Assembly: GCF_006715485.1 (NCBI RefSeq)
Contig: NZ_VFNH01000001.1
Span: 1,364,001 to 1,428,000, forward strand
Source of the DNA: Herbaspirillum sp. SJZ107
GTDB taxonomy: Bacteria > Pseudomonadota > Gammaproteobacteria > Burkholderiales > Burkholderiaceae_D
Direction of reading: 5' to 3'
DNA: 64,000 bases
In this document: in pieces, positions 35,274 through 54,526 of the stretch
How the letters are laid out: each line of letters begins with the position of its first letter
How positions within the stretch are numbered: position 1 is the first letter of the stretch
Translations under genes and position numbers: made by a program
Notes under the pieces: model-generated
Seen by the model: only the letters and a program-made list of their open reading frames with translations
Told to the model about the DNA's origin: nothing
Database searches by the model: none

Positions 35274-35348
35274 GGGCGGTTAGCTCAGGGGTAGAGCACA
35301 GCATTCACACTGCTGGGGTCGCAAGTTCGAAACTTGCACCGCCCACCA
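35274..35348 (+). tRNA. tRNA-Val (anticodon CAC)
   Basis: A 75-nt cloverleaf with encoded CCA. The acceptor stem GGGCGGT pairs with ACCGCCC. The D arm is GCTC...GAGC, the anticodon stem CAGCA/TGCTG encloses the loop TTCACAC (anticodon CAC), and the T arm is GCAAG-TTCGAAA-CTTGC. It is a single gene with its own promoter and a terminator about 95 nt downstream. Confidence 0.97.
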
Positions 35349-41031: not shown

Positions 41032-42225
41032 CTAGCGCAGCGCCAGCCGCAATTGCAGCAGCAGATAATCGACGTCGGCGGCGCCGGTATAGCGGCCCAG
41101 CGAAATGCGCACCGCATTGCGCGCCTGCGCATCGCTCAGCCCGATCGCGCGCAGCACATACGAGGGCGCGGCGCTGGCCGAATTGCAGGCGGAGCCGGCG
41201 GACACCGCAATGCCGGGCAGCTTGTCCGCCAGCCCGCCGGTGCCGCTGAAGCTGACGTTGACGTTGTGCGGAATGCGCTGTGCGAGGTCGCCGTTGAAGC
41301 GCACGCCGGGCAGGGCCGCCAGGCCGCTGCGCAGGCGTTCCTGCAAGGCCGCGATGCGCGATGTTTCGCCAGCCAGTTCCAGGCGGGCGAGTTCGCAGGC
41401 CTCGCCCATGCCGACGATCTGGTGGCTCGGCAGCGTGCCGGAGCGCAGGCCCTTTTCATGCCCACCGCCGTCCATCTGCGCCTCCAGCCGGACTTGCGGG
41501 TCGCTGCGCACGTACAGCGCGCCGATGCCCTTGGGGCCGTACAGCTTGTGCGCACTCAGCGACAGCAGGTCGACCTGCAGCTGCTCGACGTCGACCGGCA
41601 TCTTGCCGGCCGCCTGCGCCGCGTCGGCGTGCAGCAGGATGCCGCGTGCGCGGCAGATGCGCCCGAGTGCCGCCACCGGCTGTATCACGCCAATCTCGTT
41701 ATTGACCAGCATGACCGAGGCCAGGATGGTATCCGGCCGCAGCGCCGCCTCGAAGGTGGCCGGGTCGACCAGGCCGCTGGCCTGCGGCTGCAGGTAGGTG
41801 ACTTCGTAGCCTTCGCCCTCCAGCCGGCGCATGGTGTCGAGCACCGCCTTGTGCTCGGTCGCCACCGTGACCAGGTGCCGGCCTTTGGCGCGGTTGGCGT
41901 GCGCCGCACCCTTGATGGCGAGATTGTTCGATTCGGTGGCGCCGGAGGTCCAGACGATGTCGCCGGCGCGTGCGCCGATCAGGGCCGCGACCTGGGTGCG
42001 GGCACGTTCCACCGCGAAGGCGGCATCCTGGCCGAAAGCGTGGGAGGAGCTGGCCGGGTTGCCGAATTTTTCAGTCATGTAGACCAGCATCTTCTGGGCG
42101 ACGCGCGGATCGACCGGCGTGGTGGCCGCGTAGTCCAGGTAGATGGGACGCGCCGCCGGCGCGGGGAGGTCGGCGGGGCTGCAACAGGGCGCCGCGGCGC
42201 GGCTAGGCGTGAGGGCTTCGGTCAT
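41032..42225 (-). CDS. IscS-like cysteine desulfurase
   Basis: 397 residues, fold-type I PLP enzyme that removes sulfur from cysteine to a protein persulfide. [12 protein letters not shown] near the N-terminus, [25 protein letters not shown], the PLP lysine in [10 protein letters not shown] (Lys227) and the catalytic cysteine in [17 protein letters not shown] (Cys347) are all present. The loop around Cys347 is of the group I (IscS/NifS) type. The N-terminus carries an Ala/Pro-rich extension with a Cys-Cys pair. No iscU, iscA, iscR, suf or thiamine/tRNA-thiolation gene is next to it, so it is likely a secondary desulfurase. The first ATG with MTEALTPS was chosen; the longer ORF lacks support. 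Confidence 0.9.
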
Positions 42226-42499
42226 GACGGTCCTGGTGGATGGAGGAAAACCCACCTTAACCGCGTCCCTTACAAAAATGAACGACCGAATGTGCACATC
42301 CTTATGCGGTTTTTCACGAGCCCAGGTCCGCTTGCTGTCGGCGCGACGTTGGCCTTGACGCGTATGGCGGCAGTTGGTCAAGCACGTTGCAGAGGCATTC
42401 CGATCCAAGAAGTGCAACTAACCGACAAACGAAAGGCGACCGAACGACACCCCGCCACCAACGGCCGGTGGCAGTGACGAAGCGCCGGTCGGTGTTCCG
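42226..42499. other. Intergenic region, no gene seen
   Basis: 274 bp between the cysteine desulfurase and the esterase, both on the minus strand. It should carry the desulfurase promoter; no convincing hexamer pair, repeat or small ORF was found. Confidence 0.4.
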
Positions 42500-43504
42500 T
42501 CAACCCGGCTGCACGGCGACCTCGGGTTCGACCGGATCCAGCGCGTCGCGTGCCCCCGTGCACTGGTGGCGCAGGAAGAAACGCAGCATCTCGCGGCTGG
42601 CGTCCGGGCCGCCCGCCTCGGTGTAGCTGCCGCGCCGGTTGCCGCCGCACCAGGCGTGGCCGACGCCGTCGAGCGTCCAGTGCTCGGCCAGGATGTTCCC
42701 CGCGGGACTCTTGTGGACGTGCCGGGTGAAGCCGCGGCCGGCCATCTCCCCTCGCTCCTGCGACAACGACAGCGCAAGCCGTCCGCGCGGCGTTTGCGCC
42801 GTGTAGGCATCGATGGTCTGCTGAATCACGCCGGCGCTGTTATTCGGATGCACGGTGCTGTCCTGGTCACCGTGGAAGACGATCGTCGGCACGCCGGACG
42901 GCGCATTCCCGCGCACCGGTGCCGGCGCGGCGGCGCCGTCGCGCATGGCCAGCATCGCGCCATAGTGGTCGGTGGCGCTGCCGTACGCCAGGCCGGAATG
43001 ACAGCCGACGGCGGCGAACAGATCGGGATAGGTCCTGCCGAGGATGACCGCCATGGCGCCGCCGGCGGACAGGCCCGCGACGTACACGCGCGTCCGGTCG
43101 ACCGCGTGCTCGGCCATGACCTTGCGCACGACGCCGGCGATGAGGGCAGGTTCGCCCCGGCCGCGCTGGTGGTGGCCATCGTCGAACCAGTTCCAGCAGC
43201 GGCTCCAGTTGGCGTCGGCCGGTTGCTCGGGGTAGGCGACCAGGTAGCCGGCTTCCTGCGCGAGCTCGTTCATGCCGGTGCCGAGGGCGAAATCGTCGGC
43301 GTCCTGGCCGCCGCCGTGGAGCATGACGACCAGCGGCAGCGGGTCGTCGCCATGCCCGCCCGGCACGAACAGCTTGTAGCGCAAGGATCGGGCGTCGCCG
43401 TGGTAACGGTCGGCGGTGAATGTCCCGCCGCTGGATGCGCGGGCCGGGGCGAACGGGGAAAGGGCGAAGGACGACCATGCGTCCAGCATCGTATGTAACA
43501 TCAT
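42500..43504 (-). CDS. PHB-depolymerase family esterase
   Basis: 334 residues of the esterase-PHB family (alpha/beta hydrolase). YKLFVPGGHGDDPLPLVVMLHGGGQDADDF is the family opening, with the oxyanion motif. The lipase box is GLSAGGAM (Ser146), the Asp is in FHGDQDSTVHP and the His in GVGHAWCGG. Substrates range from short-chain poly-hydroxybutyrate to acetylated xylan or feruloyl esters. There is no clear signal peptide or linker/substrate-binding domain, so a cytoplasmic or atypically exported enzyme is possible. Confidence 0.87.
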   Translation of the reverse strand: MMLHTMLDAWSSFALSPFAPARASSGGTFTADRYHGDARSLRYKLFVPGGHGDDPLPLVVMLHGGGQDADDFALGTGMNELAQEAGYLVAYPEQPADANWSRCWNWFDDGHHQRGRGEPALIAGVVRKVMAEHAVDRTRVYVAGLSAGGAMAVILGRTYPDLFAAVGCHSGLAYGSATDHYGAMLAMRDGAAAPAPVRGNAPSGVPTIVFHGDQDSTVHPNNSAGVIQQTIDAYTAQTPRGRLALSLSQERGEMAGRGFTRHVHKSPAGNILAEHWTLDGVGHAWCGGNRRGSYTEAGGPDASREMLRFFLRHQCTGARDALDPVEPEVAVQPG

Positions 43505-43679
43505 CTGGCTCCCTTCAGGCGCTGAGTCCTTGTATTTGTGCCAGTGTCACACGATGCTGCGCTGCAGCATAGGCAATGCTGAGCCGTCGTCGTGTAGGAG
43601 ATCACGCCGACACGATGCACGGCGAGGAACAGGAGCGCCAGCCGGGTCCTGCACGGCCGCCGCGCAGGAAAACACCCGG

Positions 43680-45278
43680 CTACTCGGCCGCCAGCACCTG
43701 GATCTGCGCCGTCGCCTTCGGCGTCGGCCAGATCTTCGATTGCAGGCCGGTGCTGACCGCCACCTTTTGTCCGGCGCCGGTGTCGTAGGTGATCACGCCG
43801 CCGCTGACGGCCCCACCCAGCGCACGCTTCCACAGTACCTTGCCGCTGGCGCTGTCGATCACATAGAAGTTGCCGCCCATGTCGCCGAAGAAGGCCACGC
43901 CGCCGGCGGTCGGGGTCACCGCGCCGATGATCGGATTCGGCGCCTTGAAGCGCCAGCGCTGCTTGCCGGAGACCGCATCGACCGAGGTCAGCCAGCCGCC
44001 CCACCTGGCTTTCGGGTCGTTCTTGCCGAAGCCGTCCTTCGATGAACCGGACCAGGCCTGGCCCTTCGACACCGAGGCGATCTTGTCGTCGCCGTCGACG
44101 CGCACGGTCGTGCACCAGTCGACCTGGCCGCTGAGCACGGCGTCGTGGGCCAGGTCGTAGGCCGGCCCGTTCCATTCGGAGCCGCCCTGGGTGCCGGGGC
44201 AGAAGCGCGTGCCCTTGGGCGACAGCGGGGCGCCCGTGTTGAACTGGGTGGTCATCGGCAGCCGGTACAGGCGCTTGCCGCTCTTGCGCTCGAAGGCGTA
44301 GAGGAAGCCGTCCTTCGGGCTCAAGGCCATGATGTCGGTGCCGTTGCGGGCGGTGAACAGCGCCGGGGCCGACGACACGTCGTAGTCGTGGAAATCTTCC
44401 GGCACGATCGGGAAATGGCGCTTGTAGGCGCCGGTCTTGGCATCGAGCACGACGACCGAGCCGGCGTACAGGTTCTCGCCCTTGCGCAGGTGCTTGGCGA
44501 AGTCGGGCGCCGGATTGCCGCCCGGGACGTACAGTTCGCCGCTTGCGGGATCGAGCGAATACGAGGTCCAGGTGGCGCCGCCGGTGATTTCCACGCCGGG
44601 GGCATTGTTCCAGGTCGCGGCCGGGGGCGCGCCGCTGCCCTGCGGACCGCGGGTCGGGTCGGCGGCCGATTTCGGCACCAGGTAGTACTCCCAGACGATC
44701 TTGCCGGTCGCGGCGTCGAGGGCGTACATGCGTCCCTTGACGCCGCGGTTGTCGCCGCCGGCATTGCCGATGAAGACCAGGCCGTTCCAGACGATCGGCG
44801 CGGCCGGTACGGTTTCGCCTTTTTCCTGGTCGGCGATCTGCGTATGCCACAGGCGCGCACCGGTCTTCTCGTCATACGCATAGACCGAGCCGTTCGACGC
44901 GCCGCGGAACACGCGGCCTTTTTCGATGGCGACGCCGCGCTGGGCGCCCAGGTAGCTGTTCTTGAACTCCTCGTGCATGCGCCAGTTCAGCTTGCACGTG
45001 TCCGGATTGATGGAAAAGGTGTCGTGCTCGGTGGTGGCGAACAGGGCGCCATCGACCTGCACCAGCCCGGACTGGAAGCCGGTCGATTCGCCGGTATCGT
45101 AGCTGCACACGATCTTCATGGCGCCCGCATTCGCAGGCTTGATGGCGTCGAGCGGCGAAAAGCGTTCGGAGGCGACGGTCCGGTTATAGCTCGGCCAGTC
45201 GGCGACCGGCGCGGCATGCAGCACGGGCATGGCGACGGCGAGCGCGGTCGTACCCAGAAACACGGTAAATGGTCGCAT
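43680..45278 (-). CDS. PQQ-type beta-propeller dehydrogenase-like protein
   Basis: 532 residues with a Sec signal peptide (AVAMPVLHAAPV) and repeated propeller-blade motifs such as GRVFRGASNGSVYAYDEKTGARLWHTQI, GRMYALDAATGKIVWEYYLV and GNFYVIDSASGKVLWKRAL. PADWPSYNR-type text at the N-terminus and the GGATWTSYSLDPASGELYVPGGNPAPDF block recall the quinoprotein alcohol dehydrogenases of the periplasm. No haem CxxCH is present and no PQQ biosynthesis gene or cytochrome is adjacent. Enzyme function is therefore inference. The ATG at 45278 has GAGGA upstream; a TTG seven codons earlier is less likely. Confidence 0.83.
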   Translation of the reverse strand: MRPFTVFLGTTALAVAMPVLHAAPVADWPSYNRTVASERFSPLDAIKPANAGAMKIVCSYDTGESTGFQSGLVQVDGALFATTEHDTFSINPDTCKLNWRMHEEFKNSYLGAQRGVAIEKGRVFRGASNGSVYAYDEKTGARLWHTQIADQEKGETVPAAPIVWNGLVFIGNAGGDNRGVKGRMYALDAATGKIVWEYYLVPKSAADPTRGPQGSGAPPAATWNNAPGVEITGGATWTSYSLDPASGELYVPGGNPAPDFAKHLRKGENLYAGSVVVLDAKTGAYKRHFPIVPEDFHDYDVSSAPALFTARNGTDIMALSPKDGFLYAFERKSGKRLYRLPMTTQFNTGAPLSPKGTRFCPGTQGGSEWNGPAYDLAHDAVLSGQVDWCTTVRVDGDDKIASVSKGQAWSGSSKDGFGKNDPKARWGGWLTSVDAVSGKQRWRFKAPNPIIGAVTPTAGGVAFFGDMGGNFYVIDSASGKVLWKRALGGAVSGGVITYDTGAGQKVAVSTGLQSKIWPTPKATAQIQVLAAE

Positions 45279-45368
45279 GGCATTCCTCGAGATGGTCAAT
45301 ATGACATCTCCAGTGTAGCAAGCCGCGCCGGCGGGGACTGTTCAGCTGGTGGGAATGAGTGTTCCGTT

Positions 45369-46388
45369 TTACGTCTCGATGACGATCTTGCCGAACGCCC
45401 CGCGGTCCAGCTGTTCGAAGGCGGCCGGCAGGTCGGCCAGCGGGTGGCGCGACCCGATCACCGGCTTGATCCGGTTGCGGTCGACCGCGCGCACCAGGTT
45501 CTCCAGCGCCAGCCGGCTGCCGGTGCCGATGCCGTGGATCGTCACATCCTTCAGCATCAGCGGCATGGCCGGCGCGCCGAGGTCGAAGCCCTCGAGTGCC
45601 CCGATCTGACAGATACGGCCGCCGACGGCCGCCGCCTGCACCGATGTGCCGAGGTGGGCGCCGCCCACGACTTCGAGGACGATATCGGCGCCGCGGTCCG
45701 CGGTCAGCGCGTACACGGCCTCGAGCCAGTTCCCGCGCTTGCTGTCGATATAGTGGTCGGCGCTCAGCGCACGCGTGCGCGCCTCGTTGTCCGCGCGGCC
45801 GCAGACGATCACTGTGGCCCCGTGCGCCTTGGCGATCTGCAGACCGAACAGCGCCACGCCGCCGGTGCTCGGAATCAGCACGGTGTCGCCGGCGCGCACG
45901 CGGGCGCGCTCGGCCAGCGCAAACCAGGCCGTCACGCCGGCGCAGGGCAGGGTGCAGGCTTCGGCATCTGTCAGCGTGGACGGGGCGCGCACCAGCCACG
46001 CCTCCGGCAGCGCCACGTACTCTGCCAGCACGCCCGGATAGTAGCCGCCGAGGGTACGGTAGGCCGGCGTGCGCGCATCGCCGGGGCGCAGGCCGTCGAT
46101 CCAGTCGGGCATGAAGGTCGAGATCACGCGCGCGCCGGCCTCGAAGCGGTTGGCGCCCGGACCCGATGCGACCACTTCCCCGCACAGGTCGGAGCCGGGT
46201 GTGAACGGAAACGCCAGCGGCAGGCCGCGCCCGGTCTCGACGACCATCTTGTCGCGGTAGTTGAGGGCGACCGCCGCCACTTTCACCAGTACCTGGTGTT
46301 CGCCAGGGACCGGGATCGGCGCCTCGCGTAATGCCAGCCGGTCGCGTCCGATGGCGTCGATTTCCCAGCGCCGCATGGTATCAGTCAT
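45369..46388 (-). CDS. Zinc-type alcohol dehydrogenase-like / quinone oxidoreductase family protein
   Basis: 339 residues of the medium-chain dehydrogenase superfamily. N-terminal GroES-like part (VLVKVAAVALNYRDKMVVETG, FTPGSDLCGEVVASGPG) and a Rossmann domain (VLIPSTGGVALFGLQIAKAHGATVIVCG). The structural and catalytic zinc cysteines are missing, so it fits the zinc-independent NAD(P)H-quinone reductase/enoyl reductase branch. The ATG at 46388 has AAGGA 7 nt upstream. It is divergent from a LysR gene with 103 bp between, a layout suggesting that regulator controls it. Confidence 0.87.
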   Translation of the reverse strand: MTDTMRRWEIDAIGRDRLALREAPIPVPGEHQVLVKVAAVALNYRDKMVVETGRGLPLAFPFTPGSDLCGEVVASGPGANRFEAGARVISTFMPDWIDGLRPGDARTPAYRTLGGYYPGVLAEYVALPEAWLVRAPSTLTDAEACTLPCAGVTAWFALAERARVRAGDTVLIPSTGGVALFGLQIAKAHGATVIVCGRADNEARTRALSADHYIDSKRGNWLEAVYALTADRGADIVLEVVGGAHLGTSVQAAAVGGRICQIGALEGFDLGAPAMPLMLKDVTIHGIGTGSRLALENLVRAVDRNRIKPVIGSRHPLADLPAAFEQLDRGAFGKIVIET

Positions 46389-46454
46389 GATGTTTTCCTT
46401 TACTGTCAACGAGATGGATGAGTGTGACAGCGGCGACTATGCGCGTGAATATCC

Positions 46455-46460
46455 TATAAT
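46455..46460 (+). promoter_or_regulatory. -10 box for the LysR gene in the divergent region
   Basis: TATAAT 32 bp before the LysR ATG. A LysR-type half-dyad TTGA-N10-TCAA lies between it and the ATG (~46472-46490). No good -35 was found. Confidence 0.4.
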
Positions 46461-46491
46461 CGGCATTGGTTGTTGAATATGGTGCATCAAT

Positions 46492-47394
46492 ATGACAGGG
46501 ACCGAATACGCCGAGCTGGTGGCTTTCATGGCGGTGGCGAGCGAGCGCAGTTTCCGGCGCGCGGCGCAGCGCCTGGGGCTGTCGCCGTCGGCCTTGAGCC
46601 ATACGATCCGCGCGTTGGAGACGCGGCTCGGCGCGCGCCTGCTCAACCGGACCACGCGCAGCGTCGCCCCGACCGAAGCCGGGCAACAGTTGTTCGCGCG
46701 CCTGCAGCCGGTGCTGGGCGAGATGGACGCGGCCGTGCGCGAGGTCGGCGCGCACCAGGACACGCCGCGCGGCACCGTGCGCGTGAACCTGCCGCGTATC
46801 GCCGCGCAATGGGTCGTCGGGCCAATCCTGGCCGACTTCCTGGCGGCTTACCCGGGCGTACGGGTCGATCTGGTGGTGGACGACAGCATCACCGACGTCG
46901 TCGCCGGCGGCTTCGACGCCGGCATCCGCTCTGGCGAACTGGTGCAGCAGGACATGGTGGCGATCCGGCTCACACCCGACCTGCGCATGGCGGTGGTGGG
47001 CGCCCCTGCCTATCTTGCCCGGCATCCGGCCCCGCAAGCGCCGCTGCAACTGCGCGAACACGCCTGCCTGACCTACCGCTGGCGCGAGAGCGGGACGCTG
47101 CAGCGCTGGCGTTTCTCGGGGCCGGCGGGGGCCAGCGAGGTCGCCGTCGACAGCGTGTTCACCGCCAACGACACCAATCTGCTGCTGGATGCCGCGCTGC
47201 GCGGCGCCGGCCTGGCGTATCTCCTCGACGGTCTGGTGGCGCCCTACCTGGGGCGTGGGGAACTGGTGCGCGTGCTGGAACCCTGGTGCCCGCCATTCGC
47301 CGGCTTTTACCTCTATTACCCGAACCGGACGCACATGCCGGCGGCGTTGCGCGCATTCGTCGACGTCCTCAAGTCCAGCTACGCGGATCGATGA
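46492..47394 (+). CDS. LysR-family regulator (next to quinone reductase gene)
   Basis: 300 residues with a winged helix-turn-helix (~3-62, FRRAAQRLGLSPSALSHTIRALETRLG) and the usual C-terminal effector domain. The NRTTRSVAPTEAGQQLF block is typical of the LTTR family. Its gene is divergent from the MDR enzyme gene at 45369 and converges on the DadA-like gene, ending 18 nt from it. Effector unknown. Confidence 0.93.
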   Translation: MTGTEYAELVAFMAVASERSFRRAAQRLGLSPSALSHTIRALETRLGARLLNRTTRSVAPTEAGQQLFARLQPVLGEMDAAVREVGAHQDTPRGTVRVNLPRIAAQWVVGPILADFLAAYPGVRVDLVVDDSITDVVAGGFDAGIRSGELVQQDMVAIRLTPDLRMAVVGAPAYLARHPAPQAPLQLREHACLTYRWRESGTLQRWRFSGPAGASEVAVDSVFTANDTNLLLDAALRGAGLAYLLDGLVAPYLGRGELVRVLEPWCPPFAGFYLYYPNRTHMPAALRAFVDVLKSSYADR

Positions 47395-47412
47395 TTATCC
47401 CGTATCGCCGGA

Positions 47413-48663
47413 TCAGGAAAACGGGAACGCGACCTCGGGCGCGCGACCCGAGACGATATCGGCCAGCGCCCGGCCCGAGCCGCAGGCCATGGTCCAGCCA
47501 AGCGTGCCGTGGCCGGTATTCAGGTACAGGTTGGCATAACGCGTCCTGCCGACATACGGCAGGTTCGACGGCGTCAGCGGCCGCAGGCCGGCCCAGTAGC
47601 GCACCTGGTCGTAGTCGCAGGCGTCTGGAAACAGGGCGCGCACGCGGCGCGTGATCGCTTCGCAACGCACCATGTTGAGTTCGCGCGAATAACCGTTCAA
47701 CTCGCAGGTGCCGGCTACCCGCAGGCGCGATCCGAGCCGCGACATGACCAGCTTGTGGCCGTCGTCGGTGAGCGACACCGTCGGTGCCGCGCCGGCATCG
47801 GCGATCGGGTAGGTGGCGGAATAGCCTTTGCCCGGATAGATCATCAGCCGGATGCCGAGCGGTGCCAGCAGGGCAGGGGAGAAACTGCCGAGGGCGACGA
47901 CGAAGCCGTCGGCACGCAGCACCTGGTGCCGGCCGGCGCCGTCGATGACTTCCACGCCGGTGATGTTTCCTGCCTCGGCCAGCAGGCGGGTCGCCGTCAT
48001 GTTGTAGGCAAAATGGACGCCGGCAGCCGTGCTGCGGGCGGCAAGCTGGGACGTGAACCGGTAGACGTCGCCCGATTCGTCGGTGGCCGTGAAGTCGCCT
48101 CCCACCAGCCGCGGGCGTGCCGCGCGCAAGGCCGGCTCGATGCGCACCACCTCGTCGGCGTCGATCGTCATGCGCGGGCAGCCCAGTGCGCGCATCGCCG
48201 CCGCCGCCGCGCAGGATTTGTCGAACTCCCGTTGGTCCGTGTAGAAATGCAGGATGCCGCGTTCCAGATGGTCGTATTCGATGCCGGTGTCGGCACGCAG
48301 CGCCTGCAGGCTGCGGCGGCTGTAGTCGGCCAGCGCCACGATCCGGCGCAGGTTCGCCGCGACGCGCTCAGGCCGGCACTCGCGGATGAACTGCAGGCAC
48401 CAGCGCCATTGCAGCGGATCGGCGCGCAGCCGAAACAGCAGCGGCGCATCTTCGCGCCCGAGCGAGCGCAATACCTTGAGCAGGCTGGCAGGATTCGCCC
48501 ACGGCTCGGCATGCGACACCGAAATCTGGCAGCCGTTGGCAAAGCTGGTCTCCTGCGCCGGTCCTGGCTGGCGTTCGAGGACGGTCACGGCATCGCCGGC
48601 CTGGCGCAGGTACCAGGCCGACGCGGTGCCGACTGCGCCGGCGCCCAACACGATGATGTTCAA
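47413..48663 (-). CDS. DadA-like FAD-dependent amino-acid dehydrogenase, under a TPP riboswitch
   Basis: 416 residues of the DAO/DadA family. The FAD-binding GAGAVGTASAWYL (7-19) and QETSFANGCQISVSHAEPWANP (~38-59) lie near the N-terminus. GKGYSATYPI lies in the middle and the C-terminal RYWAGLRPLTPSNLPYVGRTRYANLYLNTGHGTLGWTMACGSGR matches E. coli DadA closely. DadA oxidises D-amino acids to 2-oxo acids, passing electrons to the respiratory chain. The 5' leader holds a TPP aptamer, which is unexpected for dadA but common for thiO, the glycine oxidase of thiamine synthesis; the protein may serve a ThiO-like role. No alr, lrp or thi gene is next to it. Confidence 0.92.
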   Translation of the reverse strand: MNIIVLGAGAVGTASAWYLRQAGDAVTVLERQPGPAQETSFANGCQISVSHAEPWANPASLLKVLRSLGREDAPLLFRLRADPLQWRWCLQFIRECRPERVAANLRRIVALADYSRRSLQALRADTGIEYDHLERGILHFYTDQREFDKSCAAAAAMRALGCPRMTIDADEVVRIEPALRAARPRLVGGDFTATDESGDVYRFTSQLAARSTAAGVHFAYNMTATRLLAEAGNITGVEVIDGAGRHQVLRADGFVVALGSFSPALLAPLGIRLMIYPGKGYSATYPIADAGAAPTVSLTDDGHKLVMSRLGSRLRVAGTCELNGYSRELNMVRCEAITRRVRALFPDACDYDQVRYWAGLRPLTPSNLPYVGRTRYANLYLNTGHGTLGWTMACGSGRALADIVSGRAPEVAFPFS

Positions 48664-48751
48664 GGTTGCTCACTCCCCGGGTCACTGTAAGGACTGGCGA
48701 TGCAGGGAAGAGAAGAAAAACGGATGCGGGGCGGCGCGCGCAGGCTGTTCG

Positions 48752-48838
48752 GGCTTCCCTTCGCTGGCATTATCCAGATCAGGTTCAAAGGGTATGTCTC
48801 ACCCGCGCGCCGGTAACGACGGCGCAGGACCCCTAGCG
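48752..48838 (-). ncRNA. TPP (thi-box) riboswitch
   Basis: On the minus strand: CTAGGGGTCC, a P3 hairpin (GCGCCG/CGGCGC), GGGTGAGACATACCC, then CCTGATCTGGATAATGCCAG and CGAAGGGAAG. These are the conserved elements of the thiamine pyrophosphate aptamer in the right order and spacing. It lies 88 nt before the DadA-like ATG and well after the stop of the upstream porin gene, so it controls the flavoenzyme gene. A 9-nt stretch of the aptamer (CGGCGCGCG, 48812-48804) is complementary to CGCGCGCCG in the downstream leader (48740-48732), a possible switching helix. Confidence 0.95.
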
Positions 48839-48929
48839 GTTTGTCGGCTCATGCGAGCAGACGGCAGCAGTGTACGCAGGATTGGCGTGGCTGGCAAACG
48901 GCGGCCGTGTCGACGGCCGCGCAAACGGT

Positions 48930-49994
48930 TCAGAAACGGTACTGGATCCCGGTCGTCAAGCCGGTCTGCGTCGATGCGCTGCCCAACTCGTCGCGCGACA
49001 GTCCGATCGGTTGCCCGTGGGCGGCGCGTGCTTGCGCAGCGACGACATAGAAGGTCGTGCGTTTCGAAAATGCGACCATGGCGCGCACCACCACCATGGT
49101 CGGGTCGGCATCGCGGCTGGCAGGCAGGTTCCGCGTATTGATATGGTAGGCGGCGCCGGTCAGCGTCACGTTGCCGACCAGGTAGCTCACGCCGGCCCAG
49201 CAGGTGTCGGCGCGCAGGTCGGCCTTGCCGGGCGTGGCGGAGTCCAGCTCGAAGCCGCGCATTGCCATCATCGTGCGCCAGCGGCCCGACTGGTAAGCCG
49301 CGCCCAGGTGCCACGCGCGGGTCTGGTCGCGCCGGCCGCTGGCGGCCAGGGTATTGCCGTTGACCTGTTCCCAGGTCGCCATGACACCGAGGCCGCCACC
49401 GGACCATGATCCGCCGACGGCGACCTTGCGGCCATCGGCCGCGTGCCCGGCCTGTTCGCCAAGCCCGACGGTGGCGCCGTAGGTCAAACCGCCGCTGTGG
49501 CCCGTATATTTGACCAGGTTGTCGAAGCCGGTCGTCATGCCGTATTTCGATGGCCCGGTGGCGCTGCCGGTGGTCGCCCAGGAGTAGTTCGGCGCGTAGC
49601 CCATCGGATCGAACTTGCTCACCAGGTCGTAGGTCGTGGTGAACGAGCGGCCGACCACGATGCGTCCGAAGCCCCCTTCGAGGCCGACATTGGCCTGGCG
49701 CTTGAACAGCGGGCCGCCGCCGGTATCGCCGGTATCCATGCCGATCGCGCCCTCGAGGTTGAAGACCGCCTTCAGGCCGGCGCCCAGGTCTTCGCTGCCG
49801 CGAAAACCCCAGCGCGAGGTGTTCTTGCCGCCCGAAACCACGCGGACCACGCTGCCGTCGCCGGGTGCCGCGTGGTTCACGTATTCGACGCCGGCGTCGA
49901 TGATGCCGTAGATCTGGACCTCGCTCTGGGCCATGGCGGCCGGGTCCAGGAAAAGCGCTGCCACGACGGCGAGCGCGCGTGCCGACTTCTTCAT
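48930..49994 (-). CDS. Gram-negative general porin
   Basis: 354 residues, an Omp32/porin_4-type trimeric outer-membrane channel. The signal peptide is MKKSARALAVVAALF...AMA. SEVQIYGIIDAGVEYV opens the first strand, with RWGFRGSEDLGAGLKAVFNLE following and LVGRSFTT-type loop text. It ends in the C-terminal aromatic signature GIQYRF needed for Bam insertion. GGAG lies 7 nt before the ATG. It is the last gene of the GntR-linked MFS-hydrolase cluster, probably supplying outer-membrane entry. Confidence 0.92.
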   Translation of the reverse strand: MKKSARALAVVAALFLDPAAMAQSEVQIYGIIDAGVEYVNHAAPGDGSVVRVVSGGKNTSRWGFRGSEDLGAGLKAVFNLEGAIGMDTGDTGGGPLFKRQANVGLEGGFGRIVVGRSFTTTYDLVSKFDPMGYAPNYSWATTGSATGPSKYGMTTGFDNLVKYTGHSGGLTYGATVGLGEQAGHAADGRKVAVGGSWSGGGLGVMATWEQVNGNTLAASGRRDQTRAWHLGAAYQSGRWRTMMAMRGFELDSATPGKADLRADTCWAGVSYLVGNVTLTGAAYHINTRNLPASRDADPTMVVVRAMVAFSKRTTFYVVAAQARAAHGQPIGLSRDELGSASTQTGLTTGIQYRF

Positions 49995-50053
49995 GCTTGT
50001 CTCCAATGTGATGGTATTTTTTGTGCCGGTGCCATGCCGGCGGCGGGTGCGGT

Positions 50054-50962
50054 TTACGTGAACCCGAACAGCGCTTTCGGCGTATCGGCCAGCACGATGC
50101 GCCGTTCGTCCGGGTCCGGCAGCCAGGTATCGAGCGCTTGCCTGGCCGACCCGTAGTCGGCCTGGTTTTCGAACTGGGTGTGCGGCCAGTCGCTGCCCCA
50201 CAGCAGGCGTTCCATACCGAAGGCGTGGCGCAGCAGCGGGATGGCGTCGAGGGCGATCTGCTGGCCGCGGCCGCCGGCGCCGTTGCGGTAGGCGCCCGAC
50301 AGCTTGATCCAGACGCGCCGCGTCGACGCGGCGTCCAGCAGGAAGCGAAAGCCCGGATCGTCGACGCCGAGCGCCGGGTCGGGACGGCCGAAGTGGTCGA
50401 CCACGACCTTGACGCCGGCATCCAGCAGCGGCTGCAGGACGGCCGGCAGGCGGCCGGCTTCGCGGTGCACCTCGACCTGCCATCCGAGGTCCGCGACCTG
50501 CCGCAGGAGTGCGCGCCAGCGGCCATCCGCGAAGTCGGGCACGGCGGCGTTGCCGACGAGGTTCAGGCGGATGCCGGCGATGCCGGCGGCCTGCATCGCG
50601 CCGAGCGCCGCCGGCGTGGCGTCGGGCCCGACGACCGCGATGCCGCGCAGGCGCCCGGGCAGGAGCTTCAGTCCGGCGAGAAGATAGCTGTTGTCGGTAC
50701 CCAGGAAGCTGGGTTGCACCAGCACGCCGCGCGCGATGCCTTGCCGGTCCAGCATGCCGATGTAGTCGGCGAGCAGGGCGTCATGGTCGGGTGCGTAGCG
50801 CCGCACGTTGGCCAGCTTGAGGCCGCGCTGGAAGATGTGGGCGTGGGTATCGATGGCTGCCATGCTGGGATGCTCCTCACGCTTCCCGGTGCCGGCACAG
50901 GCGGGCAGCAGGAAAGGCAGGATGGCGCTGGCCACGCCCATGTGGAATTGGCGTCGTTTCAT
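50054..50962 (-). CDS. Amidohydrolase_2 family lactonase-like protein
   Basis: 302 residues, TIM-barrel metal-dependent hydrolase of the amidohydrolase 2 type. DTHAHIF gives the HxH motif (His40, His42), VDHFGRPDP and the C-terminal LLWGSDWPHTQFEN supply further ligands. Relatives include 2-pyrone-4,6-dicarboxylate lactonase, rhamnono- and fuconolactonases. The N-terminus has RRQ plus a hydrophobic stretch ending LLPAC, so it may be a Tat or lipoprotein signal, which would put the enzyme in the periplasm; this is unusual and worth checking. Between an MFS gene and the porin gene. Confidence 0.86.
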   Translation of the reverse strand: MKRRQFHMGVASAILPFLLPACAGTGKREEHPSMAAIDTHAHIFQRGLKLANVRRYAPDHDALLADYIGMLDRQGIARGVLVQPSFLGTDNSYLLAGLKLLPGRLRGIAVVGPDATPAALGAMQAAGIAGIRLNLVGNAAVPDFADGRWRALLRQVADLGWQVEVHREAGRLPAVLQPLLDAGVKVVVDHFGRPDPALGVDDPGFRFLLDAASTRRVWIKLSGAYRNGAGGRGQQIALDAIPLLRHAFGMERLLWGSDWPHTQFENQADYGSARQALDTWLPDPDERRIVLADTPKALFGFT

Positions 50963-51003
50963 GCAGTGTTATCGCTGAGGTGGAGTTGAGGACCATGTTT
51001 CGT

Positions 51004-52248
51004 TCAGTGTCCGGCGGCGCCGTCGGCGAGATCCTTGCCGCGGGTTTCCGGCAGCGCGATAACGGCAAGGATCACCAGCGCATAGGCGATGCCGGCATCG
51101 ACGCCGATCGCGGTACCGAGCGGCATGTTGCCGCTCATGTGGCCGACCAGGACCGGAAACCCGGCCGAGACGATGCGGCCGAAGTTGTAGCAGAACCCGA
51201 CGCCGGCGCCGCGCATCTCCGCCGGATAGAGTTCGTTGAACAGGGCGCCCAGGCTGGCCGGAATGCCGGCGGCAAAGAAGCCCAACGGCAGTCCGAGCAG
51301 CAGCATGGCGCTGTCGCCCAGATCGAGGAAGACGTAGGCCTGTACGGTGACGATGCAGCAGGCGGCGAACAAGACCAGATTCCAGCGCCGGCCGAGGCGG
51401 TCCATCAGGTAGGCGCTCGCAATGCAGCCGCACCAGAATGCGCCGATGATCAGCGCCAGGTAGCCGCTCGTGCCGAGCACGGACAGGTGGCGTTCCGTCT
51501 TCAGGTAGGTCGGGAGCCAGGTCATCAGGGCGTGGTAGCCACCATGCGCGCCGACGCCGACGAGGGCGCCCATCGCGGTCAGGCGTAGCACGCCGGGCCC
51601 AAAGATGGCCAGCGGTCCGGGTCCGCCGGCGCCGGGCCGGGAAGCGCTGTCCGTAAAACGCTCGGGCTCGGGAATGTGGCGGCGCACATAGATGATGAGC
51701 AGGGCCGGCAGGACGCCGATCCCGAACATGATGCGCCAGGCCAGCTCGGGCGGCAGCAGCAGGTAGACTGCCGAATACAGCAGCACCGCCGCACCCCAGC
51801 CCACCGCCCAGGCGCTCTGGACCGAGCCCATTGCCTTGCCGCGGTGCGCCGGCCGGATGACCTCGGCCATCAGCACGGCGCCGGCCGCCCATTCGCCGCC
51901 GAAGCCGAAGCCCTGCAGTGCCTTGAGCACCAGCAGCTGGCCGAAGCCGGTGGCAAACGCCGACAGCATCGTGAACAGCGAGAACCAGGCAATCGTCAGC
52001 TGCAGTGCCCGGACCCGGCCGATGCGGTCGGACACGGCCCCCATGATCCAGCCGCCGAGGGCCGAGGACACCAGCGTCACGCCGCCGATCAGGCCGGCGT
52101 CCGTCTTGTCGAGGCCGAATGTGGCGATCAGGGCCGGTATGGCCAGGCTGAACATCTGCACGTCGAGCGCATCGAGCGCCCAGCCGCCGAAGCAGCCCCA
52201 GAAAGTCTTGCGTTCCCGTGGAGTGATCTCCCGGTACCAGTTGAACAT
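51004..52248 (-). CDS. MFS transporter (AAHS/sugar-acid symporter type)
   Basis: 414 residues, twelve TM helices. The loop signature DRIGRVRALQLTIAWFSL between TM2 and TM3 and LMDRLGRRW in the second half are MFS motifs. GFGFGGEWAAGAVLMAEV is typical of the aromatic acid:H+ symporter or sialic-acid/metabolite symporter groups. Expected to import an organic acid by proton symport. It shares the catabolic run with a second MFS carrier of another subfamily. Confidence 0.88.
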   Translation of the reverse strand: MFNWYREITPRERKTFWGCFGGWALDALDVQMFSLAIPALIATFGLDKTDAGLIGGVTLVSSALGGWIMGAVSDRIGRVRALQLTIAWFSLFTMLSAFATGFGQLLVLKALQGFGFGGEWAAGAVLMAEVIRPAHRGKAMGSVQSAWAVGWGAAVLLYSAVYLLLPPELAWRIMFGIGVLPALLIIYVRRHIPEPERFTDSASRPGAGGPGPLAIFGPGVLRLTAMGALVGVGAHGGYHALMTWLPTYLKTERHLSVLGTSGYLALIIGAFWCGCIASAYLMDRLGRRWNLVLFAACCIVTVQAYVFLDLGDSAMLLLGLPLGFFAAGIPASLGALFNELYPAEMRGAGVGFCYNFGRIVSAGFPVLVGHMSGNMPLGTAIGVDAGIAYALVILAVIALPETRGKDLADGAAGH

Positions 52249-52352
52249 GAATGTCTCCGCATGATGCGGCGGGGTGGCATCGACGCCCGCCTGTCATCGG
52301 GCCGCTGGTGCTGTCAGCGCTGCGGCCCTGGTTGGGTGCAATGGGAAGCCGG

Positions 52353-53666
52353 TCAGCGCTTGCGGGTGAGCAGCCACAGGGTGATGCAGCCGATCAGGGA
52401 GATCAGCGCGATCGGCAGCAGGGCCAGCGCAAAGCTGCCGGTCGCCTGCTTGATGGCGCCCAGCATCGCGGAGCCGACGAAGCCGGCCAGGTTGCCGACC
52501 GCGTTGACCTGGGCCAGGCCGGCGGCAGCACTCTTGCCGGGCATCCATTCGCTGGCCAGTGCCCAGAACGGTCCCTTGAAGATATAGGTGCCGGTGACTG
52601 CCAGCACCAGCAGCGCGATGGTGAGGGTGAGGGAAGAACCCGTAAACGCCACCAGCATCAGGCTGATCGCCACCGCGGCCAGCGGCAGGCCGCTGTGCCA
52701 GACGCGTTCTTGGGTGCGGTCCGAGTGCTTGCCCCACCACAGCATCAGGACGGCGGCTATGCCGAAGGGCACCGAGTTGAGCAAGCCGGTTTCCAGCGTC
52801 GAGAGGCCGAAGGCCTTGATGATCTGCGGCTGCCACAGGGACAGGCACTGGCTGGCGCCGGACGCACCCGCATACACCAGCGCCGCGGCCAGCACGTAGC
52901 GGTTCAGCAGGATGTCGCGCAGGCGGCCGTGGTCGGCGCCGCCGGCGGTCTTGCCGGCCGCCGCGTTCTCGGTGTCCAGCTGGCGCGTCAGCCAGGACTT
53001 TTCTTCCGCATTCAGCCACTTGGCTTCCTGCGGCTTGTTGGTCAGCAGCCATGGCACCATCACGCCGAGCAGGATGGCGGGCATGGCTTCCAGCACGAAC
53101 ATCAGCTGCCAGCCCTGCAGGCCGAACAGGCCGTCGAGCTGCAGCAGCGCGGCCGACAGCGGCGAGCCGATGAAGCTGGACAGCGGCACCGCGACCATGA
53201 AGATGGCGATGATGCGGGCACGGTAGGCGGACGGGAACCATTGGGTCAGGTACAGGATCACGCCCGGGAAGAAGCCCGCTTCGGCGGCGCCGAGCAGGAT
53301 CCGCATCGCATAGAACGAGTTCGGTCCGCTGATGAGGGCAGTGCAGGCCGACACCAGGCCCCAGCTGATCATGATGCGGGCGATCCACAGGCGCGCCCCG
53401 ACCTTCTGCATCGCCAGGTTGCTCGGAATTTCGAACAGCACGTAAGTCAGGTAGAACAGGCCGCCGCCGAGTCCGAAGGCGGCGTGGTCGATGCCGACGG
53501 CATGGTTCATCTGCAGCGCCGCGAAGCCGACATTGACGCGGTCGACAAAGGCGATGAAGTAGCCCAGCATGAGAACCGGCAGCAGGCGCCATGCGACCTT
53601 GCGCATGGTCTGGCGCTCCAGCTGCGATATGACGCGCGTGCTTGTGTCCAGGGTGGTCGAATGCAT
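52353..53666 (-). CDS. MFS transporter (anion:cation symporter, ACS type)
   Basis: 437 residues. RKVAWRLLPVLMLGYFIAFVDRVNVGFAALQM is the signature start of the ACS family (tartrate, phthalate, hexuronate, glucarate carriers), followed by EIPSNLAMQKVGARLWIARIMISWG and GAAEAGFFPGVILYLTQWFP. It lies 125 bp downstream of the GntR gene on the same strand, as first structural gene of the cluster. A tartrate-like or sugar-acid substrate would fit the tartrate dehydrogenase gene 2 kb away, but that is inference. Confidence 0.9.
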   Translation of the reverse strand: MHSTTLDTSTRVISQLERQTMRKVAWRLLPVLMLGYFIAFVDRVNVGFAALQMNHAVGIDHAAFGLGGGLFYLTYVLFEIPSNLAMQKVGARLWIARIMISWGLVSACTALISGPNSFYAMRILLGAAEAGFFPGVILYLTQWFPSAYRARIIAIFMVAVPLSSFIGSPLSAALLQLDGLFGLQGWQLMFVLEAMPAILLGVMVPWLLTNKPQEAKWLNAEEKSWLTRQLDTENAAAGKTAGGADHGRLRDILLNRYVLAAALVYAGASGASQCLSLWQPQIIKAFGLSTLETGLLNSVPFGIAAVLMLWWGKHSDRTQERVWHSGLPLAAVAISLMLVAFTGSSLTLTIALLVLAVTGTYIFKGPFWALASEWMPGKSAAAGLAQVNAVGNLAGFVGSAMLGAIKQATGSFALALLPIALISLIGCITLWLLTRKR

Positions 53667-53791
53667 TGTCTTTCCTCGGGTCGAATTTATAGGTAAAGAG
53701 GGGCCATCCGCGCCTGTCGCCAGGCTGGCCTCTGTAATTCGGGACGGCGGGGTGTGCCCCGCCGGCCGCTCAGCGGATCCTCAGTGGATCC

Positions 53792-54526
53792 TCAGCGGAT
53801 CTCTACGTGATAGCGGAACTGCTCGGCCGGGCCGCGCGAACGGCGCCACTCCAGCGGCTGGCGGTCATAGCCCAGCGCCACGCGCTCGACCACGATCACC
53901 GGCGCGCCGGGCTGCAGTTGCAACAGCCGCGCATGCACCTCGTCGACCGCTTCGGCGGTGAGGTCTTCCTCGGCCGACGCGATCACCTGGCCGCAGCGTT
54001 CCTCGTACAAGGGATACAGCAGGTCGCCGAAGGCGCCGGTGTCGATGTCGAGCAGTGCCGCAAATTTGTACTTGGGCAGCCAGATCGATTCGGCGAGCAG
54101 CGGTGTGCCGTTCAGCAGGCGCAGGCGCGTCATGTGGATGACTTCCGAACCGGGCGCCAGGCGCAGGGCGGACGCCACCGCGGAGGGCGCTTCCATGACT
54201 TCGCGGCGCAGGATGCGGCCCTCCGGCACCTGGCGTTCGCCGCTTTCCTTTTGAAAGCGGAAGAAGCGGAACAGGGAAGAATCGAAGCGTGCCCGGCGCA
54301 CGAAGGTGCCGCGTCCCTGGAAGCGCTCGAGCGCGCCTTCCGCGACCAGCATGTCGATCGCCTTGCGCACCGTGCCGATGGACGCCGAGAACTGCTTGAC
54401 CAGTTCGGCTTCAGTGGGGATGGCTTCGCCCGGCCGCCACTGCTGGCTGGCAATGCGCTCGCTGAGTTCGTCCCGCAAGCGCTGGTACAAGGGAAGCCGT
54501 TCGTCGTGTCTCCGTACGAAGTTCAT
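53792..54526 (-). CDS. GntR/HutC-family transcriptional regulator
   Basis: 244 residues. The N-terminal winged HTH (~10-78, YQRLRDELSERIASQQWRPGEAIPTEAELVKQFSASIGTVRKAIDML) is followed by a UTRA effector domain (~95-238, the HutC type). It likely represses the cluster 53666-48930 and itself, releasing on an organic-acid or sugar-acid inducer. Confidence 0.93.
   Translation of the reverse strand: MNFVRRHDERLPLYQRLRDELSERIASQQWRPGEAIPTEAELVKQFSASIGTVRKAIDMLVAEGALERFQGRGTFVRRARFDSSLFRFFRFQKESGERQVPEGRILRREVMEAPSAVASALRLAPGSEVIHMTRLRLLNGTPLLAESIWLPKYKFAALLDIDTGAFGDLLYPLYEERCGQVIASAEEDLTAEAVDEVHARLLQLQPGAPVIVVERVALGYDRQPLEWRRSRGPAEQFRYHVEIR

Follow-up and report, generated by a model that had tools for sequence, protein, structure and literature searches.

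The window analysed here, that is the whole stretch of 64,000 nucleotides from Herbaspirillum sp. SJZ107, carries on its reverse strand a TPP riboswitch followed by one gene for a DadA-type FAD enzyme. An Rfam covariance search matched the aptamer (48739-48844, - strand) to the full RF00059 model (positions 1-105, window 48844-48739) with 64.5 bits and an E value of 2.3e-10 at a gathering threshold of 54.3. The original prediction of a thi-box leader thus identified the right element at the right locus, except that its boundary at 48838 clipped 6 nt of the matched aptamer. Since most columns of the aptamer core are invariant in all 14 leaders from genomes of the genus with a full-length ortholog of the gene, the window aptamer is more than a chance match. 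Upstream of it, a consensus scan predicts a promoter-like TTGCCA-17-TACACT (48869-48897, - strand) that agrees with the consensus at 9 of 12 positions; one such site was observed where 0.1 would be expected, on consensus match alone. The first open reading frame 3' of the aptamer (47413-48663, - strand) begins with TTG 75 nt from the aptamer, encodes a protein of 416 amino acids (P0001) and has a Shine-Dalgarno-like GGGGAG (48673-48678, - strand, from reading the sequence) 9 nt before its start. The gene appears to stand alone: the open reading frame beyond it lies on the opposite strand and the one upstream looks porin-like by eye. As had been predicted, no thiamine gene was seen when the open reading frames listed for window positions 42000-54000 were inspected by eye. 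The aptamer is of the standard type of RF00059 thi regulons, whereas the gene behind it belongs to the DadA family, an arrangement for which we found no report in the open papers searched.

Control by this leader is likely translational, by analogy with Neisseria, where a TPP riboswitch precedes cytX-thiO-thiE and cytX is controlled at translation (PMC7237195). A transcription terminator was sought in the leader and none was found. RNAfold predicts a candidate hairpin (48669-48712, - strand) that would mask the ribosome binding site, with a pairing of 0.98 for the Shine-Dalgarno sequence, but 13 of 60 shuffled sequences equalled this value, and the predicted fold of the whole leader does not surpass that of shuffled sequences (z 0.79). 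Masking of the ribosome site as the off-switch is thus suggested by folding and does not rise above shuffles in most of the 14 leaders. Because shuffled sequences pair the ribosome site about equally well in most leaders, we infer a translational switch rather than read it from the fold. In 11 of the 14 leaders (e.g. L124:4048-4285 and L022:3802-4040), a short upstream open reading frame that is 12-23 codons long and has a ribosome-site-like sequence reaches the dadA start; the leader in the window and two others lack it. Its stop codon overlaps the dadA ATG in nine leaders and lies 10 nt inside the gene in two, and its start is found 35, 47, 50, 53, 56 or 68 nt before dadA, which gives six lengths in one frame. 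This arrangement suggests translational coupling.

The protein is a DadA-type flavoenzyme as predicted, with 484.6 bits to NF001933 (cut-off 383) and 216.4 bits to the Pfam DAO family, and it is 41% identical to E. coli DadA (b1189) and 44% to the ordinary dadA product of its own genome. Seven pairwise comparisons with orthologs gave dN/dS values of 0.17-0.25, so the protein is kept under purifying selection. The ThiO model TIGR02352 gave only 99.9 bits against a curated cut-off of 250.8, whereas two Cupriavidus genomes, with a ThiO gene between thiC and thiG, reach 222-232 bits; as these also fall under the cut-off, a fair bar for ThiO in this group is about 200 bits. In a quick tree with very long branches, from which 23 of 109 rows were dropped by hand for thinning (including two that duplicated rows retained in the set), the protein falls on the DadA side of a branch with support 99, apart from the ThiO and ThiO-like rows, and the two Cupriavidus ThiO rows do not group with it. 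Score and tree together rule it out as a canonical ThiO member. It nevertheless resembles ThiO, as represented by the B. subtilis structure 1ng3, in being an FAD enzyme of the DAO fold and in its association with thi genes or the thi regulon. The structure model (pLDDT 89.6, pTM 0.90) has glycine oxidase 4ysh as its top match in VIA-align (Z 41.6, rmsd 2.1 over 353 residues), followed by proline dehydrogenase (Z 40.5), sarcosine oxidase (40.0) and ThiO 1ng3 (39.3). For a predicted model, these matches indicate a common fold and are no proof of substrate. In the alignment with glycine oxidase, the arginine of the protein's GLRP motif is matched; in ThiO, this residue binds the carboxylate.

A covariance search of the own genome detected three TPP riboswitches, including that of the window, and one of them precedes thiC-thiS-thiG-thiD-thiE (L004), an operon in which no flavin oxidase gene was seen. 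ThiH (TIGR02351) had no match in this genome at an E value of 1e-10, and no match came near the score of Burkholderiales ThiO. The search for a canonical thiO thus returned no recognisable one; its top match was a dadA at C1:1971483, with 117.6 bits in six-frame translation and 151.2 bits as a whole protein. This gene is the second dadA that the original prediction had proposed to look for. Flanked by an alanine racemase gene and, on its other side, by a divergent Lrp-type regulator, it scores 723.6 bits as a DadA and clusters with the E. coli enzyme at a support of 100/96. Ordinary DadA work is covered by this locus, whereas neither racemase nor Lrp-type regulator was seen adjoining the gene behind the aptamer.

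Of the 62 genomes searched in the genus, 14 encode a full-length ortholog (80-100% identity). Three TPP matches occur in precisely this set of 14 and in no other genome, and the coordinate gap between aptamer and gene is 71-134 nt in every case. ThiG is present in 58 of the 62; the remaining four, which are also the only ones with just a single TPP match, have no ortholog. ThiH was matched in none of the 62 at an E value of 1e-10, and no ThiO match exceeded 168.9 bits with the 27 best candidates per genome scored. Twenty thi regions, three of them from ortholog-bearing genomes, have the order thiC-S-G-D-E (thiS unmatched in one, L112). They contained no DadA-like match, and inspection by eye revealed no flavin oxidase gene behind thiE, one region ending 1.2 kb past thiE.

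In relatives the ortholog also lies next to thiamine genes themselves. Our view of relatives covers the best 80 of 589 loci, and the clade is under-sampled for this reason; open reading frames were called by a crude script, neighbours were partly identified by eye, and TPP motifs were sought in these loci with up to six mismatches. Among these best 80 of 589 loci, the ortholog has thi genes nearby in 12. It immediately follows thiE in Massilia psychrophila and M. eurypsychrophila, where a TPP element heads the thiC-S-G-D-E row, and a contig of a metagenome-assembled genome (L018), which starts inside thiG, reads thiG-thiD-thiE and then the ortholog (ThiD identities are rough, the query having a long upstream extension). 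In Noviherbaspirillum soli, which has one thi-linked and one unlinked copy, the ortholog lies just before a TPP-thiC unit. In eight Janthinobacterium loci it stands directly before an extra thiG, beside which no thiS was found. Each of the five Janthinobacterium genomes searched has two thiG genes, of which one adjoins the ortholog and the other lies 2-3 kb from a TPP element; the thi operon was inspected in one genome (L146). A TPP element lies upstream of the ortholog in four more loci, those of M. niastensis, M. phosphatilytica, M. kyonggiensis and Massilia sp. PDC64, which belong to the 14 genomes of the genus (G019, G023, G015 and G052), as their matching coordinates and scores show. Two thiG loci were also observed in Herminiimonas fonticola (G083:C4:47495 and C4:117423; L141 and L142), one thiS-thiG-thiE without a thiC match nearby, the other thiC-thiS-thiG.

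Phylogeny, which the original prediction had proposed as a check, unites these arrangements. In a careful tree of 62 hand-chosen proteins, which leaves out the truncated ortholog of G061, the ThiO rows and a distant DadA-like protein of the own genome (L127), all 26 thi-linked proteins form one clade with support 99/96, made up of 14 behind TPP elements, three behind thiE, eight before thiG and one before TPP-thiC. Its sister group consists of 26 sampled Oxalobacteraceae DadAs, none of which was found to be thi-linked, and the thi-linkage label changes once on the tree. Unlinked status was assigned by tblastn of thi genes and by the TPP motif within loci, mostly 4 kb per side (23 and 3 rows), and for 13 of the 26 rows also by whole-genome covariance searches, which covered 26 genomes of relatives. 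Many of the unlinked DadAs occupy a common conserved place, exemplified by a locus typed as M3 peptidase, HolC and an Lrp-type regulator (L026). Twelve clade-wide differences separate the 26 thi-linked from the 26 unlinked proteins, and no clear case of active-site specialisation was found among them. The ThiO model does not separate the two groups: six thi-linked proteins scored 99.6-121.3 bits and three unlinked ones 108.7-117.9 bits.

ThiG builds the thiazole from dehydroglycine, ThiS-thiocarboxylate and DXP. Aerobes such as B. subtilis obtain dehydroglycine through glycine oxidase, anaerobes and E. coli through ThiH (PMC9046217). Given the four arrangements with thi genes and the lack of a recognisable ThiO or ThiH in the genomes, the dehydroglycine step is the simplest role for the enzyme. 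Judging from sequence comparison, we therefore consider it probable that a DadA paralog was recruited to make dehydroglycine for ThiG and acts as a functional stand-in for ThiO from outside the ThiO family. A D-amino acid dehydrogenase paralog would have become part of the thiamine regulon. At low TPP, the riboswitch would permit synthesis of the enzyme, which would oxidise glycine to dehydroglycine (2-iminoacetate), and ThiG would combine this with ThiS-thiocarboxylate and DXP to form the thiazole; when TPP is ample, the leader would switch the enzyme off, probably at translation. As the enzyme is DadA-like, its electrons would probably pass to the quinone pool and not to O2. We infer glycine as substrate, the electron acceptor, the TPP response and the on/off mechanism from the comparisons described. 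In favour of recruitment to the dehydroglycine step are the coincidence of TPP element and ortholog in 14 of 14 genomes, the linkage to thi genes, the single clade, the two copies in N. soli, the own genome with a separate dad locus and without ThiO or ThiH, glycine oxidase as the top fold and the GLRP arginine. Against it stand the 44 thiG-positive genomes of the genus without the enzyme, the truncated gene in G061, the retained DadA character, the YeiH and xsc neighbours in Janthinobacterium, ThiO scores that do not separate the groups, the 12 differences, and sarcosine oxidase and proline dehydrogenase folds that are nearly as close. The idea of a non-orthologous ThiO put forward in the original prediction thus has strong comparative support from linkage, phylogeny and the lack of an own ThiO or ThiH, and is partly supported overall, given that 44 of 58 thiG-positive genomes do without the enzyme.

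The alternative named alongside it, a thiamine-regulated enzyme for a D-amino acid, is less likely. In its wider form, the enzyme would belong to the thiamine regulon but serve another thiazole- or sulfur-linked step, acting on a different amino acid (e.g. D-cysteine, D-alanine or a sulfonated one); the product formed from it, or its removal, would be important for thiamine synthesis or for enzymes that depend on TPP. The family match to DadA, kept together with a score far under the ThiO cut-off, fits such a role, and so does the order YeiH-dadA-thiG-porin-xsc found in all eight Janthinobacterium loci (e.g. L046:2839-9245). In L046, xsc matched sulfoacetaldehyde acetyltransferase with 1045.5 bits, and YeiH was assigned to PF03601. 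Xsc uses TPP. A YeiH with 80% identity also precedes the ortholog in N. soli. However, YeiH and xsc were matched in none of the 17 Massilia-type loci (L018 included), nor in the window, and the neighbour common to the clade is a thi gene or a TPP element. Moreover, the flavin-oxidase product known to be necessary in the pathway is dehydroglycine from glycine (PMC9046217). We regard another substrate as unlikely, while giving it some weight beside the dehydroglycine step.

It is more improbable still that an ordinary D-amino acid dehydrogenase acquired a TPP riboswitch, with a genuine regulation in the service of amino acid catabolism or with an aptamer that is a relic. The full DadA family match would agree with this, as would the lack of a full ortholog in 48 of the 62 genomes of the genus. 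In one of these 48 (G061; L125:3758-4669), a piece corresponding to residues 113-416 with 76% identity remains; the N-terminal 112 residues and the riboswitch were not found beside it, which points to gene loss. Twenty-three genomes contain a second group of DadA proteins (44-48% identical), and the TPP-linked copy is absent from all of them; no thi gene was matched in the three regions read around this group, and shared descent could explain the pattern. An ordinary DadA is difficult to reconcile with the Lrp-type/dadA/racemase locus already present in the genome, with an aptamer core kept in 14 of 14 leaders, and with orthologs that lie behind thiE or before thiG and for which no riboswitch of their own was found.

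Since 44 of the 58 thiG-positive genomes lack a full ortholog and have no ThiO or ThiH match over the cut-off, the enzyme must be dispensable or replaced there. ThiO seems rare in the family: with the nine best candidates per genome scored, one of 195 sampled genomes had a ThiO match above 181 bits (224.3), and the other 15 genomes matching ThiO at an E value of 1e-48 reached 168-180 bits. Some Massilia carry ThiO-like proteins of 145-169 bits, and Collimonas and Undibacterium have others of 173-180 bits; these may be glycine oxidases. No thi gene was matched in the regions taken for five of them (L131-L134, with L149 and L150 bringing the regions to six in all). The protein of L131 gave 169.3 bits with the ThiO model, while none of the other family models reached its cut-off. 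Dehydroglycine may also form without an enzyme from glyoxylate and ammonia. That this route, an unlinked DadA or another DAO enzyme already provides dehydroglycine, and the TPP-linked copy only raises the supply in thiamine shortage, would agree with the rarity of ThiO and with the 44 genomes without a recognisable source, but it is compatible with the dehydroglycine reading, alters the essentiality of the gene and not its product, and as a separate explanation is very improbable.

A bolder extension of the recruitment reading, to which we give somewhat less than even confidence, would add a third way for bacteria to make dehydroglycine. Once ThiO had been lost, a DadA-derived, quinone-linked glycine dehydrogenase that neither needs O2 nor forms H2O2 might have arisen a single time in Oxalobacteraceae, with its link to thiamine status provided by a riboswitch, an operon or pairing with thiG, depending on the genus. 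The clade is a concrete candidate enzyme for organisms in which ThiO is rarely recognisable, ThiH was not found in the genus and thiG is kept (58 of 62). It suggests that a catabolic dehydrogenase was recruited for the synthesis of a vitamin, and offers a role for a gene that a family model would call a plain D-amino acid dehydrogenase.

Another of the TPP riboswitches in the own genome (G000:C2:1617446-1617544; L005) precedes a TonB-dependent receptor that scores 319.1 bits with TIGR01783 (cut-off 223.5). The model labels it a siderophore receptor, and it may import thiamine or a precursor. Elsewhere in the window, a tRNA gene was detected at 35274-35345 (+ strand) with 65.8 bits.
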